A DNA stretch of 64,000 nt from Eutypella sp. D-1 (taxonomy: Eukaryota > Ascomycota > Sordariomycetes > Xylariales > Diatrypaceae): NCBI GenBank assembly GCA_023313575.1, contig JAJTTP010000021.1, positions 310,001 to 374,000 of the forward strand. Reading direction: 5' to 3'. The position numbers and the translations under genes are program-made. The first letter of the stretch is position 1. Each line of letters opens with the position of its first letter. Below are positions 22,421-53,805 of this stretch, piece by piece. The notes beneath the pieces are model-generated. The model was not told the DNA's origin. It ran no database searches and saw only the letters and a program-made list of their open reading frames with translations.

Positions 22421-25060
22421 ATGTCTAGTAGCACATCTTCGGATGGACATCAGCCCCGTGGCTTTGGAAAGCCGATGCTATTAGACACCGACGATGCAGC
22501 CACTACCTCCCACAAGCGAAGCCTCGTTCTCGGTGGCCATATGCCGGCACATTCTTGTGAGTATTGCCGGCTTAACCTACGCCCACCGAAGGATAGGATT
22601 AGCTGGCATTTTGGAACCACCCGAGACCATATTAGCGAAGCTTCTGCCCGCGGCTGTAAATGGGCAGCAATATACCAAGAGCAAATAAGATACTTCGACT
22701 TGGAACGAAAGGCCGAATATCAGCTCAAAATAGAATTACCTTTCCAATCACTAGGTTACAAGTGGGAGAAAGGTTACCGAGAACGCAAGGAGAGACTTTA
22801 TGAAGCGCTCGCCGATGCCCTTGACCAACCAGATCGCGAAGCATTCCTTTTCCTGAAAGAGAATAGAGCTGTGCGTTGGTCAAGTAGGAAAGTTAAATAC
22901 CGGGCGATATCTATGGAACCCAACTTCATCGGGTTCGAAATGAAGATGAAGGAGCCCGATGCTGGCTCGCACAGCATCGAAGGGGTGTTGGCTTTGGTGG
23001 TCGCTATACTCCTGCCTGTTGAACCTTTCAGTGAGGATGTCGGCGATCCGTTAGAAGATTGGGAAACAGTATCAACAGACCTTGACAACATTCCCTACCT
23101 AGCCAAATATTCCACCAGTTTTTCAGTGCTGAGAAATCCAGGTACGTAAGCGTTCGGTCATGAATTGGTGTTTCTCTAATGCTGCTTAGGTGAGCTTAAG
23201 GTATTAGGGGGTAAAAAGCGCTTTTTTTCACCCACTAATATCCATCCTGGAAGCGCTGAATCGCTGGCTCTCATACGTCGGTGGCTCCAGACATGCGCGA
23301 CTGTACATGATTGCGAGTTCACCAAGTTGCCAGATTCCATGCCAACGATGCTGCTTCAAGTAGCTGACAAACCCGAAAATGTCCAACTAGTTTTGGTTCC
23401 TCCAGGGATGCGTGAGCGATATGTTGCACTTTCGTATTGCTGGGGTCCCCGTGGACAGCAGATTCAGCTTACCGAGGAAAATAAGGCGCAGTTGTTTGCT
23501 GGCATCAGCGTTGCCTCTCTTGATCGCACTATCCAAGATGCCATTCTAGTTACAAGGGAACTTGGATTCGAATACATCTGGATAGATGCCCTGTGCATCA
23601 TTCAAAATAACCCGAACGCAAAAGCTGTAGAGATAGCCCGCATGGCTGATATCTATAAGCAATCGGTTTTCACCATCGTGGCATCAAGAGCGAGCAGTGT
23701 GATAGAGGGATTTCTTGGCGAACGTTTGCCTGCGGGCCACCGTGAACCTGACTGTGTGTTTTCTATGGGGTTTTCCGGCTGGGGGCGACAGGAAGTTTGT
23801 GGAAGTGTCGTACTTCTTCCCGCGACCGAACAGGAAATCGAACCCTGGGAGACAAGAGGGTGGACATTCCAGGAGGGTATCTTCCCCGGAAGGACCCTTC
23901 AGTTTGGCTCCGATCGTACGGCCTGGTCGTGCTACTGCGTCGACAAACCACACTATGCTTCCGATGGCGGCATCAGCGCCTTAGGGGTTTCGAAGACTGA
24001 ACATGGCGATGCTTCGTTGTACATCACCCTTAGAGAGAGACTGAGGGAATTAACCCCGCAAAGGAACCATATTCTTGTCACCGAGGATATTCCTTTCTTC
24101 ACTCAATGCTGGGGTGAGATCGTTTTTGATTACTCTACCCGACGCCTCGGAATCAAAACCGACCGGCTCCCGGCAATTTCAGCACTTGCAAAAGAATTCG
24201 CCAAGATTACCGGACAAGAATACATATGTGGTATTTGGAGAGAACACTTAGCCGCTGGACTGATGTGGGTTTCCCGCCCCGACCACCCACTGGGTGCCGC
24301 CGGACCGAGGCTTCAACCCTCGTGGAGTTGGGTGTCGCATGAGAGCGGAGTCTACATAGACAGTTGGTCATACAGGCTCCAAAAAGATTTCCAGTTGTTA
24401 TCCTCATCGGTAGAGCTCGAGTCCTTAGAGAATCCGTTCGGCGCTGTGACATCGGCAAGCCTCGACGTACTTGGTATGGTAATAACTGCCCCTCGCAGGA
24501 CGCGGATTTTCTCTCAACCAGAGCCGCGAAGTTTCAGCTTCGGAGAGTTTGAAGCCACATTGGAAGACTCTAAGTCCACTCTCGAATTTCTAAGGCTGAA
24601 TACGCCAGGACTGGGCCCATACCTGATCGAGAAATACATAGAATTTCATTTCGACTATCCAGATGAGATAGATTCCGGCATAGAGGATAGTTCACGTTTT
24701 ATTCTGCTCGTTGTAGCGGAATTATCAGACTGGTTCTCCCTCCGCGGATTGGTACTAGTAGAACTCCAGGGGAAGAAGTTCAGCCGTATAGGCCATTTCA
24801 CATTTGACCCGGGGGACCGCTTTGATGATCGTGTGAGGGCGGAGGCGGAGATGAGGTATACGAGGAGCAGGTCAGATGACAGCGAGATGGAGGACATTGG
24901 AGAAGACTTCAGTAAGCTGAACGACAGTGATTCAGAAGGTGTGTCTGATTGGACCGAGGAAGAAACCCGCCAGGAAAAGGCCTATATCGCCGCCTGTAAG
25001 AAAGAGATGGCACACATCATTCTTGCTGAAGGCAGTGTTCAAAACATAACTCTAATATAA
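22421..25060 (+). CDS. HET-domain heterokaryon-incompatibility-type protein, 863 aa
   Basis: Exons 22421-23141 and 23190-25060 join over a 48-nt intron (donor GTACGT, acceptor CTTAG, phase 1). The N-terminal 240 residues carry a CEYCRLNLRPP segment typical of the leader in many fungal HET proteins. The HET domain starts near residue 318 with YVALSYCWG, continues through the block-2 motif FEYIWIDALCIIQNN and MADIYKQSVFTIVASRAS, and reaches block 3, WETRGWTFQEGIFPGRTLQF. The remaining 400 residues are the usual variable C-terminal region with an acidic end. HET proteins trigger cell death on non-self recognition or act in fungal immunity; the partner of this one is unknown. No NACHT or repeat domain is seen. 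Frame and motifs are intact, so the gene looks functional. A MITE lies 31 bp after the stop. Confidence 0.93.
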
Positions 25061-26080
25061 ATACAATGTTTTTAGGAACTCCTCTATTCAGTAAGGCTAG
25101 GGAACGGGTACCCGTGGGTAACCCATCATTACCCGGCGATTTGGATGGGTAACCCACGGGTAAATTTTTTATAATAAAATATTTATAACTTATTTAAAAT
25201 TTAATAAAATAAATCGATTTATATTTAAAAATACTTATTACCGTTATATATATCTATTTACAATTATTTTAAAATTATTTCAGCGGAAAAAAAACTTTTG
25301 GGTAATCGTTGGGTAATTGAAAATTACCCAATGGGTACCCGTGGGTAAACGGGCATCCAATTGATTACCCATTGGGTACCCATGGGTATAGGCCAGATAC
25401 CCATGGGTACCCGGTGGGTAAAAAAAATTACCCCCGGGTACCCATGGGTCGGTGGGTAAAAATCGATGGGTGGGTATTCCCTAGCCTTACTATTCAGTAG
25501 AGAAGGCCTTACCCAGCTGTACCAACTTCGTACGTACAATGAGGTCCACACGGTGGCGACGCTTAGCTGGTGTCATCGTGCTTGTGCTTGTTTTTGGTAT
25601 AAGCAGTAATATATCGTAATGTTCTTCTCCGCCTCCTCTGTGTCGATGTGTTTTCGTTAGTTAGGGTACATCTGGGATCGTTTATATGACTTCTAAACCC
25701 GAAGAGCTGCAATCGTCAAGTGGCGTTCCGAGGCAGTGCATCGACACTAGTCAACTAGCCACTCAAGCCACTCTCCAGTTAATACATCTAGTAATACTTA
25801 TAGAGATATATTCTTTAAATGCATACTATGCAAGATTCCCAGACATTTAGCTGTTCTTAAAGTTATCAGACAAAAGCCACCTTGACGTGCTGGACGCGAC
25901 GGCAGTGGTGGAATTTCCGGTGGAAAATTCAATCACTCTCACTCTATTTCTCTCCGTTGACTGCCGATGTTCTGATGCATTTCCGGTCTCGAATCCACCA
26001 AATAGAACTGGCCTGATCAATGAGACCACGAGGTATATCCTATCCATATACGAACTCCTTAACACGCTGGGCTGTTCACC
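25061..26080. other. Intergenic region containing a MITE
   Basis: It contains the hAT-like element at 25092-25489 (separate entry). From 25500 to 26080 I see no gene; a 73-codon frame at 25887-26108 could contribute an upstream exon to the RNase H-like gene but no clear donor links them. Confidence 0.5.
25084..25497. mobile_element. hAT-like MITE with 8-bp target-site duplication
   Basis: The element spans 25092-25489 (398 bp). It begins TAAGGCTAGGGAA and ends with the exact reverse complement TTCCCTAGCCTTA. Both sides carry the same 8-bp direct repeat CTATTCAG (25084-25091 and 25490-25497), the duplication length made by hAT transposases. The interior has two arms rich in GGGTA/TACCC and GGGTAACCCA words flanking a very AT-rich core (about 25155-25300); the arms are partly self-complementary and could fold back. 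No transposase frame is present, so the element is non-autonomous. The intact duplication and perfect 13-bp ends suggest a fairly recent insertion. Confidence 0.87.
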
Positions 26081-27100
26081 ATGTGGTCACCTTCGCAGAA
26101 ATATGTAGTAATGACTGGGCTCGCTGTTTGTTTCACTGAAACCGACGAGCGTGATTCACATGGGTGTCCAGGAAAAAATTGTGATTGCAAAGCCTGCACT
26201 ATCAAATATATCGGAACAGGCGATGCGCGAGACGAATCGTGGCTTATGGAGCACCAAAGTGAACGACAGACCAATTACGCCTTTCGGGTCCACAGTGCCA
26301 GGCTGGCCATGCTCCGAGATGGAATATATATACCAAATCGGTTCGAACCGTCTAACTATCGCAACTCCAATCAAGATTGTACTCCAGAGGGACTATTTCC
26401 AGAGAAAAAATGCACCTTCAGCGTTTTCCCCGGATTCACTCCGTACCGATTTACCCTCGGTACCCCTCGACCTGTCGGCCCCTCGGGCCTTGTCAAAATG
26501 CAGCTCATCTGCACGGACGGCGCTTGCTCTGATAATGGCCGGTATGGGGCAAAAGCAGCCGCCGGCTTTGCCTTCTCCAATATCGGGCGCGAAAACACCC
26601 GCGGTTGCGTCTCCTTGCCTCTTGAAAGGGAGGGCCCGGATGGGAATAAACACACACCCACGAGCAACCGTGCTGAGCTACGTGCCGTGATTGCTGCGCT
26701 GGAATGGCGGCGTTGGTACCTCGAAGGGTGGGACGCCTTGGTCATCGCGACCGATTCGACTTATGTAGTTAATGGCTCAACTACATGGGTATCGGCGTGG
26801 ATCGACCGAGAGTGGAACAAAGCGAATGGCAGCAAGGCCGCCAACAAGGACCTTTGGAAGCACTTGCTGCGACTGTTCCGGGAGTACGCCATTCACGGTT
26901 GCGAGGTCATGATGTGGCACATACCCCGTTCGCAGAACCAGCTGGCCGACAAGAATGCCAGGCGCGGCCTTGAGTTTGACAGTAAAGATGCTTGGGCATC
27001 AAGAAGGGATCCAACGCTCGACATCGACACCGTTTTTGATTTCGGAGCAGGAAACGGGTCGCGGAATGATTCAAGAAAAAGAAAACGAACTTGGAACTAA
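26081..27100 (+). CDS. RNase H1-like protein, 339 aa
   Basis: A single open frame. The RNase H fold occupies about residues 140-300: strand one with ICTDGACSDNGRYGAKAA (D146), NRAELRAVIAALEW (E199), IATDSTYVV (D225) and the terminal NQLADKNAR with its Asp at 290. All four catalytic carboxylates of the RNase HI family are present, so cleavage of RNA in RNA-DNA hybrids is predicted. The N-terminal 110 residues are Cys-containing (CPGKNCDCKAC) and not a hybrid-binding domain I recognise. The start is uncertain: Met1 (26081), Met11 (26111) or an upstream exon are possible. Such standalone RNase H genes are numerous in filamentous fungi; origin from a retroelement is possible but no reverse transcriptase lies nearby. 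Confidence 0.82.
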   Translation: MWSPSQKYVVMTGLAVCFTETDERDSHGCPGKNCDCKACTIKYIGTGDARDESWLMEHQSERQTNYAFRVHSARLAMLRDGIYIPNRFEPSNYRNSNQDCTPEGLFPEKKCTFSVFPGFTPYRFTLGTPRPVGPSGLVKMQLICTDGACSDNGRYGAKAAAGFAFSNIGRENTRGCVSLPLEREGPDGNKHTPTSNRAELRAVIAALEWRRWYLEGWDALVIATDSTYVVNGSTTWVSAWIDREWNKANGSKAANKDLWKHLLRLFREYAIHGCEVMMWHIPRSQNQLADKNARRGLEFDSKDAWASRRDPTLDIDTVFDFGAGNGSRNDSRKRKRTWN

Positions 27101-41668: not shown

Positions 41669-42774
41669 TCACCATTCTAGGCTCTTATCTTGAGCCAATC
41701 CACCGCCGCATCCGTTTTCGCTTTGGCCCAAGTCATCTTTGGACCACTCGTAGATCCCACCGCGGTCGTTGAAGGACTTCTCGTCCCAAAAGACGGACTG
41801 CATAGCTGCCTCGACACCGACCTCGAGAATGCTCTTTGACATGATATTCTTGTTGCTACCAGACACAAAGCGCATGCACTAACCAAGAGTTTAGCGATCC
41901 ATATCAATTGCCTAAGAGTGCTGCCTGCGATGCTTACCTCATCCAAGAGCAAGTAGCTATCAGACATAACCTTGTTGCTCTCTGGCACGAAACAAGGTAG
42001 ATGACGATGCCTTCGGCAGAAGAGCTCGTACTCGTCGTTACTGATCTCAAAGCGTGCAACGTCCCGTAGAGTGGCGTCAGAGCCATCGTTCTCGCCCTCG
42101 ACCTTCAGCACTTGGAAGGCCTTCCAGCGAAATGGACCCAGCTCGGCAACGCGCGCAGCCATATCCTCATTGAAGTTGTACCGACACACCACAGTATTGA
42201 GTTTGAACATAATTCCATACTCGCGGCACCAATCGCGGATTCTGAAAAGTTGCTTCACATTGTCGCCATCCCCACGGCCGATTGTGATATTCGTGGCCTC
42301 GTCGAACGAATCACAGGAGATGGCCAGGATGTCGAGGTAGCGGCCGTACCGACGCAACCAGGGTTCCTTGATCTTACTGCCGTTGCTCACAATGGAGATA
42401 CTGTCGAGCTTTAGCGTTTTCTTGCCATACTCAATGAGTTCGCCAAGGAACTTAGGGTGTAGAAAGGGCTCGCCGCCGGCAATGTTAAGCTTCTTCATCC
42501 CAGCACGCTTCAGCAAGGCTAGGCCGCGCCTCGCGTCTTCCTCATTTAACATGAAAGAGTTCTTTGCTGTGTGGAAACAGAACCCACATTCTTTATTACA
42601 ATCTCGGTTGGGAAAGTAGTTGACTGAGATGGGGAGAGAGGCAGGAGTCGTGCGCGGCTTGTGGAATCGCCGCAGGCACACAGCACACCCTAGTGCTACG
42701 CATGCTAGGCACACGAGCAGGTTGACAATGGAAGTAGGGCCGCTATCAAGCAGTATCGTATGAATGAGCGCCAT
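41669..42774 (-). CDS. RSAD2-like: Viperin homologue (radical-SAM nucleotide dehydratase, SAND), 348 aa
   Basis: Exons 41938-42774 and 41669-41878 join over a 59-nt intron (GTAAGC...GTTAG, phase 0). Residues about 15-35 are hydrophobic and would anchor the protein to a membrane. SVNYFPNRDCNKECGFCFHTAK is the viperin signature (given here in pieces: NYFPNRDC and CNKECGFCFHTAK); Cys59, 63 and 66 make the CX3CX2C cluster-binding motif. NIAGGEPFLHP (GGEP at 100-103) contacts SAM. Further viperin-only blocks are SIVSNGSKI, LDILAISCDSFDE, RWKAFQVLKVEGEN, PESNKVMSDSYLLLDE and, after the intron, SKSILEVGVEAAM and RGGIYEWSKDDL. Length is close to human viperin (361). The last residues are SLEW. Family members convert CTP to the chain terminator ddhCTP, with antiviral action. 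No kinase or other pathway gene is adjacent. All catalytic residues are intact. Confidence 0.95.
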
Positions 42775-43573: not shown

Positions 43574-44975
43574 CTATCGAATGCCATTTTTCCTGTCCAG
43601 CATCAGGCGCAATACTATGGCGAGGACAACTGAAGCCATGATGATAAAGCCAGTGAACAACTGCACGCCAAGATAACCACCTGCAGTGTTGAGAATGACA
43701 CCTGCAATCGGTGGGCCAATCGATGACCCCACTCCTTTCCATACTGCAAGGACTCCCAGCCTTGTTCCCAACGAGCCCCAATCTGCAGTAATGGAGGTCA
43801 TTACCACGGGTTGGAAAGCCACAACACCGCCCGAGAAGAAGCCATACAAAACAGCGAAAGCGATATTGCCACCTATAGTAGACGCACTCGTCCAATAGAA
43901 CACACTAGCGGCGCAGAGGAAATAGGTAAGAATGACCGTGTTCACTGTTCCAAGACGACTAGATAGGGCTGACGGCGCTAATCGCCCGGGTATTGAGGAA
44001 CTGTTAAGGATCGATAAAAGATAGAATGTAACCTGATGGCCCTGTCCGCCGTGACTTAATGCGTAGCTTTGAAGATAGTATAAAGGCGGGTAGAATCCGA
44101 TATTGTTGAAGAAAATAGCTGCGACATATATGAGGTAGGTCTTCTCACCCAATCTCGCTTGCTGAACGATGACCCGAAACGAACGTGCCTTGCCTTGATC
44201 TTTCATCTTCTGAGCTGCATATCGCGGTCGCGTAACTGCGACGGAGAAGATGCTTACAGCCAGGGAGATGAAACCGAGGATTCTGGTAGTCCACGAAAAG
44301 CCAATTCGAGGCTGTAAGGCCTGGAAGATAATTGGGTAGGTCGTTGACCCCAGGCCGCTTCCCAAAGTTGCGATGGACATGGCCCAAGCTCGCTTCGTAG
44401 TGAAATACATGGCAACCAGCGCTATCGACGGAATGGAGAGGCAGCTAGTGCCTATACCTATACAGATGCCCTGCGCCAGGAACACTTGCCAGTACGTAGA
44501 GCTTATGCTAGTCATCATAAAGCCAAACACGACCAGGAAAGACCCGGAAACCAGCAGTGTATAACAGTGCCCTGCGTCATATATCGGCCCGATGAGAACA
44601 CCGATTGCGAAGAAGCAGAAAGCTTGGATAGAGCCAATCCAAGAAATACTAGACGGCGAAATGTCGCGCAGCAGTTCTAATTCATAGTATGTTTGGAAGG
44701 CGCCGTAAGCGTTGATAACGCCACTGAAATACTTGGATATTAGCAATATTCTAGGGCCCCAGGTCAGTGACATCAGTTAACGGGGATATTTACAGAGAGT
44801 TTAAGTAAAGACCAAAGCACCCGGCGACTTGGAGCCAAGCCAGCCATCCACCATTAGGCGGCGGGTTATCGTCTCCGGTAGGCGACCCGTCCGTCACATC
44901 TCCTGAGTCTGTTGATGGGATCCCTTGGGTGACCTCCTTATCTGCTGTCACTTTGCCATTTGGTACAGACATCAT
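43574..44975 (-). CDS. Monocarboxylate-transporter-like MFS permease, 443 aa
   Basis: Exons 44794-44975 and 43574-44723 join over a 70-nt intron (GTAAAT...TTCAG, phase 2). After an acidic 40-residue N-terminus comes NPPPNGGWLAWLQVAGCFG, the signature of fungal MCT (SLC16-like) transporters, and then NAYGAFQTYYE. About twelve hydrophobic segments follow, with SISWIGSIQAFCFFAIG and the central-loop transition RPRYAAQKMKDQGKARSF. Such proteins move monocarboxylates or related small acids across the plasma membrane; several sit in secondary-metabolite clusters. The substrate here is unknown. It is the upstream neighbour of the viperin gene, but with 0.8 kb between them a functional link is only speculation. 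Confidence 0.88.
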
Positions 44976-48318: not shown

Positions 48319-49635
48319 GGGTTTCAAGTACTATATGTGGCGGGACCGACTCTTGAGTCTTGTTGGTGGGGGGAGGGGAGGGGGGGCTTGCAACTTTTCA
48401 TGATAGATGCGTAAAAATCATAGGCTCCGTAATGAAATATGATAATTAACGAGATCACGAAAACAACGTAGTTAAATCCGAAAAGCTGCCTATGGTTTGA
48501 ATTTTCCACAAAGGCCGACTGATCGAAAAAGTCGGTGATTTCATTAATTACGGCCACCCTTATTACCGGTCTGCAGGCTGACCGGGGCTGAACGCTGACG
48601 ACGATGGGGGCGCCCGGGCGATCGATTTAGATGGATAAGATTGCATTGACTGGGTCGCATTAGGTGGCTACCCCCTGGTCGCAGCGATATTAAGCCCAAG
48701 CCATTCAACTATGTGTCATGATAATTCATGGTTATTGATTACACTACTATGTTGGTACGGGCTTACTTAGGCGCTTGGTGTGTTTACAACATGAAAAACG
48801 GAAAGGGATGGCTGGTCTAAAATTCAGGCAGCTGCATATCACCATGGACAACATGAATGGAAGGCAAAGCACCGACGGAATACGGAACGGTTGTAAGGGA
48901 TAAGCCATGCATCTGAATTGAAGGGACTGGAGGAAACGTGGTAAACATAGCTGGGAGTCCGACGTGAGTCACACGGATATGTGGATTCGTAATCTTGGGA
49001 CGAATATATCCCTTGATGTGAGCGTCTGCATAGTTCGTGTCTCTGATCCGAGTTCCCATCGGTACGGGACTAATCGGGGCCGTTGTGAGATACGTGCCGG
49101 CACCGACAACCAATACCCCGACTGGTTGCATGCACTAGGTCTGCCAGTAGGCTGTGTGCCTATTATAGTAGTCTGCGTGAAGGATCCACGAAATTTTCAG
49201 AGCAACTTCGTATGGTATATCGGCATCCGCGCGCTGCGTTCCCATCATTCGGATCCTCCCCACTTACAGGTCAAATCATAGTTTGCAAGACAGTCCAATA
49301 CGACGACATGCAGCTGACATCTGATCCTGGCAGTTAACGGTATGGTACCACGAAGAAGTCTGAACGCTGAACCCAGTCCTTGTAGAAACATGGTTATCAA
49401 CCCCAGACAAGCAAGGGGTTACCTGGCGCGTAGGAGTGCGTAATGAATCATTCGGTACTGGCGACATGCCGAATGGAACATCATTCGGGCTCGTAGGTTT
49501 CGCCGATGTAGCGAAGTACGACAACTCTATATGTAGTTGACTAGCAGATAGCACGTTGCTTACAAGAAGGCGGCCGGATTCGTGTATTCATCCTTTTCAG
49601 TTACTCACGCCATCACAAAAAGACCAACCGTTACC
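48319..49635. other. Intergenic region with two same-strand open frames
   Basis: Two minus-strand frames (48817-49131 and 49276-49554) are listed separately as a possible gene; otherwise nothing is recognised. A G-rich stretch lies at 48366-48387. Confidence 0.4.
48817..49554 (-). CDS. Possible gene of unknown function, exon structure unresolved
   Basis: Two Pro/Thr/Ser-containing open frames of 92 and 104 codons lie in tandem on the minus strand. The upstream one begins MLSASQLHIELSYFATS and the downstream one contains PISPVPMGTRIRDTNYAD and GYIRPKITNPHIRVTHVG. A GTAAGT donor near 49278 and a GGCAG acceptor near 49145 exist, but I could not join them in one frame with certainty. No family is recognised; chance frames remain possible. 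Confidence 0.25.
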
Positions 49636-50895
49636 ATGCCGCTAAAGATTCTCATCATAGGTGCGGGAGTCTGCGGCCCTGCCGTGGCTTACCTCCTACT
49701 GCATACAAACCCGGACCATGAGATAACCGTTATAGAGCGGTCTCTTTCGCTCCGCTCGAACGGCCAGCAGATCGACCTTCGCGCACAAGGAATTCCCTTG
49801 ATGAAGAAAATAGGGCTACTCGATGCCGTTCGGGAGCGGGTCGTCCATGAACGCGGAGTCGAGTTTCTAGGGCGGAATGGCAAACGAAAAGCGCTGGTTA
49901 CTATGAACGACACGGGCAAGGGCCGCCAGTCGTTCACAAGCGAATATGAGATAATGAGGGGCGATTTGGTCGACATCTTGTACGAGGCGAGCATCAAGGA
50001 GAGTAACAAGGCAAAGGGCACGGGCAGCATCAAGTACGAGTTCGGCAAGACCACGGATAGTATATCGCAAGATGAGAAGGGCGTCGATATTACATTCTCA
50101 GACGGGAGCAAGCACAGATACGACATCGTTATCGGAGCGGATGGTCAGAACTCCCGAACACGGAAGGAAATGTTCGGCAAGGAGGTTAGCGCCTCCGCGT
50201 ACAAGGAGCTCGGTGTGTGTACGGCCTTTTACAGCATGCCCCCCCAGTCGAACGAAAGCGTATACGCACAGGGCTACCACACTCCAGGTAGACTGGTAAT
50301 CACACGACCGAGCAAGCCCGACATCACAGCTGTATACTTGATGACGACCAACCAAACCTCGGAACTCAACGCGGTCGTGGGGCAGCCGGTTGAGAAGCAG
50401 AAAGAAGCGTGGGCGAAAGCGTTTGCGGACCTGGGCTGGCAGGATGATCGCTTGCTTTCGGGAATGAAGAACACATCCGACTTCTACTCCAGCACGATCG
50501 GACAGGTGAAATTAGAGCATTTCGTCAAAGGCCGCATCGCACTGCTCGGCGATGCAGGATACGTACCCAGCCCAGTTACTGGCATGGGGACCACATGCTC
50601 TCTCGTGGGAGCATACGTGCTGGCGGGCGAATTGACCAAACACAAGGATGACGTTCCCTCTGCGCTGAAGGCTTACGAAGAGGTTATGCGCCCCTTTGTC
50701 GTCGAAGCCCAGAAGCTCGTGCCCGGTTTCCCTTCTCTCATGGTCCCTAAGACCAATCTCGGAATCACAATATTGCACCTGGTGCTTTGGTTCGTCACAA
50801 TATTCAAGATCGACAAACTCATCGGGCGCATTTTGCCGGAAGAGAACGGCGGTTGGGCTCCGCCTGACTATCCGGGATTGAAATTTGACTCATAA
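49636..50895 (+). CDS. FAD-dependent monooxygenase (PHBH/TetX-like), 419 aa
   Basis: A single-exon gene. I choose the Met at 49636 (MPLKILIIGAGVCGP) because the FAD Rossmann motif GAGVCG (residues 9-14) should lie near the N-terminus; an upstream in-frame Met at 49582 would add 18 residues. E34-R35 ends strand two as in group A hydroxylases. The DG motif is VIGADGQNSRTRK (168-170) and the GD motif is RIALLGDAGYVPSPVTGMG (305-306). All three group A FAD motifs are present, so NAD(P)H-dependent hydroxylation of an aromatic or polyketide-like substrate is predicted. The C-terminus has a hydrophobic segment (GITILHLVLWFVTIF) that could touch a membrane. It precedes homogentisate dioxygenase by 1.5 kb on the same strand; a shared aromatic pathway is possible but unproven. 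Confidence 0.88.
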   Translation: MPLKILIIGAGVCGPAVAYLLLHTNPDHEITVIERSLSLRSNGQQIDLRAQGIPLMKKIGLLDAVRERVVHERGVEFLGRNGKRKALVTMNDTGKGRQSFTSEYEIMRGDLVDILYEASIKESNKAKGTGSIKYEFGKTTDSISQDEKGVDITFSDGSKHRYDIVIGADGQNSRTRKEMFGKEVSASAYKELGVCTAFYSMPPQSNESVYAQGYHTPGRLVITRPSKPDITAVYLMTTNQTSELNAVVGQPVEKQKEAWAKAFADLGWQDDRLLSGMKNTSDFYSSTIGQVKLEHFVKGRIALLGDAGYVPSPVTGMGTTCSLVGAYVLAGELTKHKDDVPSALKAYEEVMRPFVVEAQKLVPGFPSLMVPKTNLGITILHLVLWFVTIFKIDKLIGRILPEENGGWAPPDYPGLKFDS

Positions 50896-52351: not shown

Positions 52352-53805
52352 ATGCCCGTCACGTCCTTTGACTTTCCCGAACGTTACAGATATCAAAATG
52401 GTTTCCGATCGTATCTAGAGTAAGCACATACCCGTCTCACCTTGCAGCGCTGCCGTCAGATGAAGCCTATTGTCCTAACGCAGTCAGAACTGAAGCAGTC
52501 CCTGGGGCCCTAGCGATTGGCCAGAACTCACCCCAGAAGCCTCCGCATGGCCTGTATGTAGAGAAACTTTCGGGCACGGCGTTCACGGCGCCGCGCAGCG
52601 AGAACTCGCAGACATGGCTACATCGAATCCTCCCTTCCTCAACACATCCTTCTTTCGAGCCGACCACAGACGACCCCTCTAAGTCGGAAGAGGCATCCAA
52701 GATGAAGTTCATTCCTGACCAACTGCGGTGGGACCCGTTCGACCACGACGAGCAGACGGACTTCATATCTGGGTTGCGCCTAGTTTCCGGTGCCGGTGAC
52801 ACCACCCTAAAGCAGGGCTTTGGGATCTATATATACGCTGCAGGCAAGTCAATGGACGACAAGTCCGCCTTCTACTCCGCAGACGGCGATCTCTTGATTG
52901 TAGCCCAGGATGGTGTCCTGGACATCAGGACAGAATTCGGCTGGCTCCTCGTGCGGCCGATGGAAATCTGCGTCATCCCGCGGGGCATCAAGTACCAGGT
53001 ACACCTACCAAAAGGACCGGTTCGCGGATATGCACTCGAGCTCTACCAGGGTCACTTCACATTGCCGGAGCTGGGGCCGATCGGGTCGAATGGATTGGCG
53101 AATGCACGGGATTTTCAGGCGCCAGTGGCCTCCTTCAGCGAGGACTTCGGGGCCACGGCGTCTGACGGCGAGCGCAAATACACAATCACCGTCAAGTTCA
53201 ACAACTCTCTTTACCAGACCCGGCAGTCTCACACGCCGTTCGATGTGGTAGCCTGGCATGGCAACTACTATCCATACAAGTACGATCTGGGCCGCTTCAA
53301 TACCATCGGGTCCATCTCGTACGATCATCCGGACCCGTCCATCTTTACAGTACTCTCAGCCCCCTCTGCCCACCCAGGCACGGCGGTGGCCGACTTCGTC
53401 ATCTTCCCGCCACGCTGGCTGGTCGCCGAGGGCACGTTCCGGCCGCCTTGGTACCATCGGAACAACATGTCCGAGTTCATGGGCCTTATAGCGGGGCAGT
53501 ACGACGCGAAGAAGGGTGGCGGGTTCGCGCCCGGCGGCGCTAGTCTGCACAATACTATGAGTGCGCACGGCCCTGACGCGGAGAGCTTTGAGGGCGCATC
53601 AAACGCAAAGCTCGAACCCGTCCTTGTGGGTAAGGGCAGTTGTGCCTTCATGTTCGAGAGCTGCCTCACCGTCGGTGTAACGGAGTGGGGTCTTAAGACT
53701 TGCAAGAAGGTCCAGGAGTCCTATAATGAGCATAGCTGGGGCAACCTAAAGGTCCACTGGAAGCGCCCCGAAGGTGTCGAGACCGATACTCACTTGCTTA
53801 GGTAA
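52352..53805 (+). CDS. hmgA: Homogentisate 1,2-dioxygenase, 461 aa
   Basis: Exons 52352-52419 and 52488-53805 join over a 68-nt intron (GTAAGC...GTCAG, phase 2). The N-terminus [18 protein letters not shown] and, after the junction, [26 protein letters not shown] (cited in part) match the fungal HmgA family closely. Iron ligands are visible as [12 protein letters not shown] (His346, Glu352) and SAHGPD (His383), with the spacing of known enzymes. The enzyme opens the ring of homogentisate with oxygen to give maleylacetoacetate in phenylalanine/tyrosine breakdown, in the cytosol. No fumarylacetoacetate hydrolase or maleylacetoacetate isomerase lies in the window, although in several ascomycetes these genes cluster. 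It could be the main copy or an extra one serving another pathway; an intact sequence suggests it works. Confidence 0.96.

Follow-up and report, generated by a model that had tools for sequence, protein, structure and literature searches.

The window analysed here, 64,000 nucleotides of contig JAJTTP010000021.1 (positions 310,001 to 374,000, forward strand) from the fungus Eutypella sp. D-1, carries a gene for viperin (SAND, a relative of RSAD2), an enzyme whose product in animals is an antiviral, chain-terminating nucleotide. In window coordinates, the gene and its parts are as follows.

42774..41669, minus strand: viperin gene of two exons, translated into 348 residues
41938..42774, minus strand: exon 1, from the ATG at 42774 to Glu279 (residues 1-279; from translation, conservation, mapping to mouse viperin and predicted structure), with a hydrophobic helix at about residues 13-37, CX3CX2C at 59/63/66, GGEP at 100-103, Lys191/Asn193, Arg216/Lys218 and Tyr274
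41879..41937, minus strand: predicted spliceosomal intron of 59 nucleotides, phase 0, GTAAGC...TTAG, between Glu279 and Cys280
41669..41878, minus strand: exon 2, residues 280-348 and the stop, with SKSILEVGVEAAM, RGGIYEWSKDDL and the C-terminal Leu-Glu-Trp

A sequence-only reading of the window had placed an intact viperin gene at 41669..42774, and these coordinates match the coding sequence exactly; that reading was silent on strand and intron. The C-terminal viperin blocks SKSILEVGVEAAM and RGGIYEWSKDDL, which it also listed, come into frame solely after splicing, the unspliced frame leading into unrelated sequence. The spliced frame ends in the LEW tripeptide, which lends independent support to the gene model. 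Two predicted proteins part from the viperin sequence at one shared codon, the pattern that gene prediction running on through an intron at a common site would give: P0001, of 365 residues and from another data set, matches 80% of the query at 99% identity, and P0003 matches 81% of it at 78% identity. The intron at 41879-41937 contains no in-frame stop, and the unspliced reading of the Eutypella gene is 365 residues long and lacks both the LEW tag and the conserved C-terminal part. The idea of a regulated intron-retention isoform found no backing, as the P0003 prediction stops 17 residues into its own read-through, indicating that the stop-free intron is not conserved in that relative. When the 48.5-Mb assembly was searched with the protein, just the two exons of this gene came back, the sole viperin found.

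The protein is well supported as a fungal viperin. The viperin profile NF038283 matched at E 2.3e-67 with 227.1 bits, above its cut-off of 180, and TIGR04278 matched at E 1.5e-115. Sequence matches in the PDB were to the viperin of Trichoderma virens (E about 1e-113) and to that of mouse (E 2e-102), all of these scores lying well beyond chance, and the predicted structure has the viperin fold. The radical-SAM (S-adenosylmethionine) motif CX3CX2C (Cys59/Cys63/Cys66) and GGEP (Gly100-Gly101-Glu102-Pro103) stand as the sequence-only reading described them. Conservation was counted over the 120 matches listed in a protein similarity search, in which fungi make up 61 of the 62 relatives named by organism; in the alignment Cys59 is kept in 120/120 rows, and Cys63 and Cys66 in 121/121. 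The substrate-site and active-site residues of mouse viperin, which we take to be Asn77, Lys120, Ser180, Arg194, Lys220, Asn222, Arg245, Lys247, Tyr302 (the active-site tyrosine) and Arg347, fit the mouse row (5vsl, 6q2p); with the three cysteines they make 13 positions, and the query has the same residue at every one. These 13 come from 25 candidate positions; of the remaining 12, which are uninformative, 11 disagreed with the mouse row and one fell beyond it. The mouse row begins past the N-terminal region, so the comparison covers the part after the membrane segments; nor does the likeness suggest an interferon system in the fungus.

A tree of 66 rows, with the host's own MoaA as outgroup, placed the query with the viperins and apart from MoaA. 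The set of fungal rows plus mouse received 99 in the Shimodaira-Hasegawa-like approximate likelihood ratio test (SH-aLRT), and the MoaA end branch was flagged as very long. Mouse fell within the fungal rows in this tree and in the 50-row tree described below, a placement that rests on a long branch. The prokaryotic viperins (pVip), represented by 30 of the 80 prokaryotic loci found, have the catalytic domain in common with the query, the best loci reaching 41% identity (e.g. Nostoc L010). A recent bacterial origin was rejected, since 30/30 prokaryotic rows lie outside the fungal-plus-mouse set, with one long branch (L071) attached beside it at 83.

Residues 13-37 form a helix in the structure model, with a mean hydropathy of 2.7 over the 19 residues from residue 16, consistent with an N-terminal membrane-associating segment. 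Ahead of the cluster motif, 98 of 105 scored relatives have 19 consecutive residues whose mean hydropathy is 1.6 or higher; scoring took in those of the 120 with a Met start and a motif beginning no earlier than position 45, which left 15 aside. At the other end, the query terminates in LEW, a tripeptide with Trp of the type that targets clients to the cytosolic iron-sulfur assembly (CIA) machinery. The pattern [LIM][DES][WF] ends 78/120 relatives, and Trp or Phe is the last residue in 110/120. According to PMC10623007, this C-terminal pattern directs the CIA machinery, viperin is among its clients and the Trp is critical for viperin maturation.

Fungal enzymes of this kind have been characterised. 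PDB entries exist for a viperin-like enzyme of T. virens (6b4c, 7n7i, 9dgw) and for a second enzyme of the same fungus (9dfn), crystallised with CTP and SAM bound, as judged by the entry titles. The T. virens viperin belongs to another fungal subclade than the query, and 6b4c has Thr where the query has Glu226 in the VEGEND stretch. The SAND of Thielavia terrestris (TtRSAD2), a fungal SAND like the query and likened to it by description, is reported to turn CTP and UTP into their 3'-deoxy-3',4'-didehydro (ddh) analogues in vitro (PMC9642334).

Based on these relatives, we propose that the gene very probably encodes a working enzyme held at a membrane. The N-terminal helix would tether the protein to a membrane on the cytosolic side, and the CIA machinery would load the [4Fe-4S] cluster via the C-terminal Leu-Glu-Trp. 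The enzyme would then cleave SAM and dehydrate CTP, and probably UTP, to the ddh analogue, which could terminate RNA chains. Gene structure, family membership, conserved residues and predicted fold come from the sequence itself; reaction, substrate, membrane side and cluster loading are all modelled on the characterised relatives, and the probable chemistry as a ddh-nucleotide enzyme is well supported by analogy with them.

Several observations weigh against this proposal. The TIGR04278 score of 386 lies below the profile's own curated cut-off of 450 (the profile is of type 'exception'), and the final 19 residues of the structure model, the LEW tag included, have a predicted local distance difference test score (pLDDT) below 50. 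The surroundings show no link to viruses: no nucleotide kinase was found in the 19 open reading frames (ORFs) scanned with Pfam near the gene, where a small gene in shorter exons or other ORFs could escape, and the sole matches found in the genome to the thymidylate-kinase family PF02223 are on another contig (C16). A kinase-linked or CMPK2-like pair is thus not supported, and no kinase partner or fusion was seen for the query. In people, SAND has non-antiviral roles too (PMC9642334).

The alternative that survives best is an enzyme of viperin fold that, in the query clade, mainly makes another ddh nucleotide (e.g. ddhUTP) or a metabolite of the fungus's own metabolism, serving some end other than virus defence. 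The T. terrestris enzyme is described as promiscuous in vitro, accepting CTP, UTP and 5-bromo-UTP (PMC9642334), and UDP-glucose was given as its substrate in an earlier report (PMC5850085). Moreover, 14 positions split the query clade (at least 8 of 9 rows alike) from a Fusarium/Colletotrichum/Monosporascus clade (at least 11 of 12 rows alike), two groups that were defined once the tree had been seen. However, none of the 14 is among the 13 positions kept between mouse and query, and by the entry titles CTP is present in the crystals of both T. virens enzymes; we consider this alternative unlikely. Far less probable is a decaying or unexpressed copy, as both exons are open, the splice sites are GT-AG, the C-terminal LEW is retained, the 99% identical P0001 was predicted from another data set, and the GC content at third codon positions (0.64) is within the range of six other ORFs of the window (0.52-0.72), an unremarkable base composition. 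Misreading of a MoaA-like enzyme, or of some different radical-SAM enzyme, as viperin is ruled out by profile scores, tree and structure, the MoaA profile TIGR02666 giving 54.7 bits against a cut-off of 284.05 and the host having a separate MoaA-like gene (L001) among six other loci above the radical-SAM cut-off, which, from the translations of those other than L006, include MoaA, LipA, BioB and TYW1, with L007 left unassigned.

The least expected feature of this viperin is the taxonomic source of its closest named relatives. A 50-row tree was built from 41 named sequences of the 120 matches listed, P0001-P0003, T. virens, mouse, three prokaryotes and the query, a sample drawn from the sequences most similar to the query. 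The clade that holds the query has 12 rows (99/99), the others being from Diaporthe, Cytospora and Discula (Diaporthales) and from Ophiocordyceps and Hirsutella (Ophiocordycipitaceae), plus P0001-P0003; the eight sampled viperins of Xylariomycetidae are divided, six and two, between two separate clades. Diaporthe citri and D. batatas have copies in two clades each. Monosporascus and Biscogniauxia (Xylariales) and Apiospora and Seiridium (Amphisphaeriales), all Xylariomycetidae, were placed by taxonomy look-up, which was also used for the Diaporthales and Ophiocordycipitaceae; other placements are general background or were given in the match names. Trees constrained to join the query with all eight Xylariomycetidae viperins (approximately unbiased test, p-AU 2.4e-7), with the six-row group (p 0.0009) or with the two Monosporascus rows (p 5e-8) were rejected, as was a tree uniting the eight without the query (p 0.0007). 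These tests were run without P0001-P0003, P0001 and P0003 having been removed for intron read-through and P0002 alongside them. Both the tests and the six/two split were picked after seeing the 50-row tree, so the p-values are optimistic; the labels themselves follow taxonomy.

Other genes of the host look like those of a Xylariomycetidae fungus. The gene adjoining viperin is listed here.

43574..44776, minus strand: MFS (major facilitator superfamily) transporter gene (PF07690, E 5.2e-25), upstream of viperin on the same strand

Its nearest named relatives among the matches listed are Xylariales sp. AK1849 (68%), Seiridium, Neopestalotiopsis and Truncatella, and judged from this gene the locus sits in a Xylariomycetidae-like neighbourhood. 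For the host MoaA, the nearest named among the matches listed are Monosporascus (82-84%), then Neoarthrinium, Pestalotiopsis and Hypoxylon; in both searches, only the 8000 candidates sharing most words were scored, and 120 of them are listed. The mismatch between viperin tree and host fits either ancient paralogues that were lost unevenly or a transfer from one fungus to another. P0001-P0003, which are close to the query, may well come from Xylariomycetidae. It is conceivable, though somewhat doubtful, that horizontal transfer carried this viperin lineage from one fungus to another, so that a copy of Diaporthales/Ophiocordycipitaceae lineage entered an otherwise Xylariomycetidae-like neighbourhood, as if viperin were exchanged among Sordariomycetes like the defence genes of bacteria.

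The Pfam scan around viperin covered 19 of the 43 listed ORFs of at least 150 residues, and 12 of the 19 matched a family, including transporters, oxidoreductases, a dioxygenase, a methyltransferase, a HET-domain protein, RNase H, a fungal rhodopsin domain, protein kinase pieces and an RRM protein. The homogentisate 1,2-dioxygenase gene at 52372-53805 (two domains, E 5.7e-108 and 4.6e-71), with a FAD-binding-domain ORF upstream of it at 49552-50895, possibly forms an aromatic-catabolism cluster. An open frame at 26063-27100 has an RNase H domain (E 3.1e-19). The HET-domain (heterokaryon incompatibility) gene lies at 23180-25060 (E 1.8e-29); HET genes restrict the fusion of hyphae, by which mycoviruses can spread. 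Elsewhere in the genome, Piwi domains matched at four places (C12, C15, C34, C72) and RdRP (RNA-dependent RNA polymerase) domains at four (C8, C11, C12, C14), so RNA silencing is probably present. The RdRP pieces at C14:41237-43493, on the window's own contig about 270 kb before the window, have internal stops, reflecting introns or a damaged copy. The viral RdRP families PF05919 and PF02123 gave no matches in the host genome, and likewise none in the control genomes, which makes the result uninformative.

The sequence-only reading had suggested that the gene would point to an antiviral nucleotide defence, with mycoviruses as the likely targets; the identification and likely chemistry hold up, and novelty of the gene does not. 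Fungal viperins are common, with solved structures, one of which, from T. virens, is listed in a review of fungal viperin (PMC8124187), and the gene is a further member of a well-known family and of low novelty. According to PMC10732462, viperins are found across eukaryotes and date back at least to the last common eukaryotic ancestor; their distribution is sparse through repeated loss, some well-assembled fungal genomes having none. PMC11185175 concerns viperin-like proteins in plants; no fungal words turned up when it was searched for them, and it has no bearing on fungal enzymes. In the literature searched, by titles and abstract openings, no study of fungal viperin or RSAD2 against a mycovirus was found, a paper on the yeast L-A virus naming viperin once, in a reference; an antiviral role in fungi is thus a conjecture, and defence against mycoviruses a plausible and unproven purpose of the enzyme.

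The gene itself is ordinary, a clean viperin and the only one found in its assembly. Joint action of nucleotide-based defence and RNA silencing against mycoviruses was the subject of no study found in the same literature, and a fungus with both viperin and Piwi/RdRP matches could serve to ask whether the two act together. If transfer explains the mismatch between gene tree and host, viperin would have been passed around within fungi.
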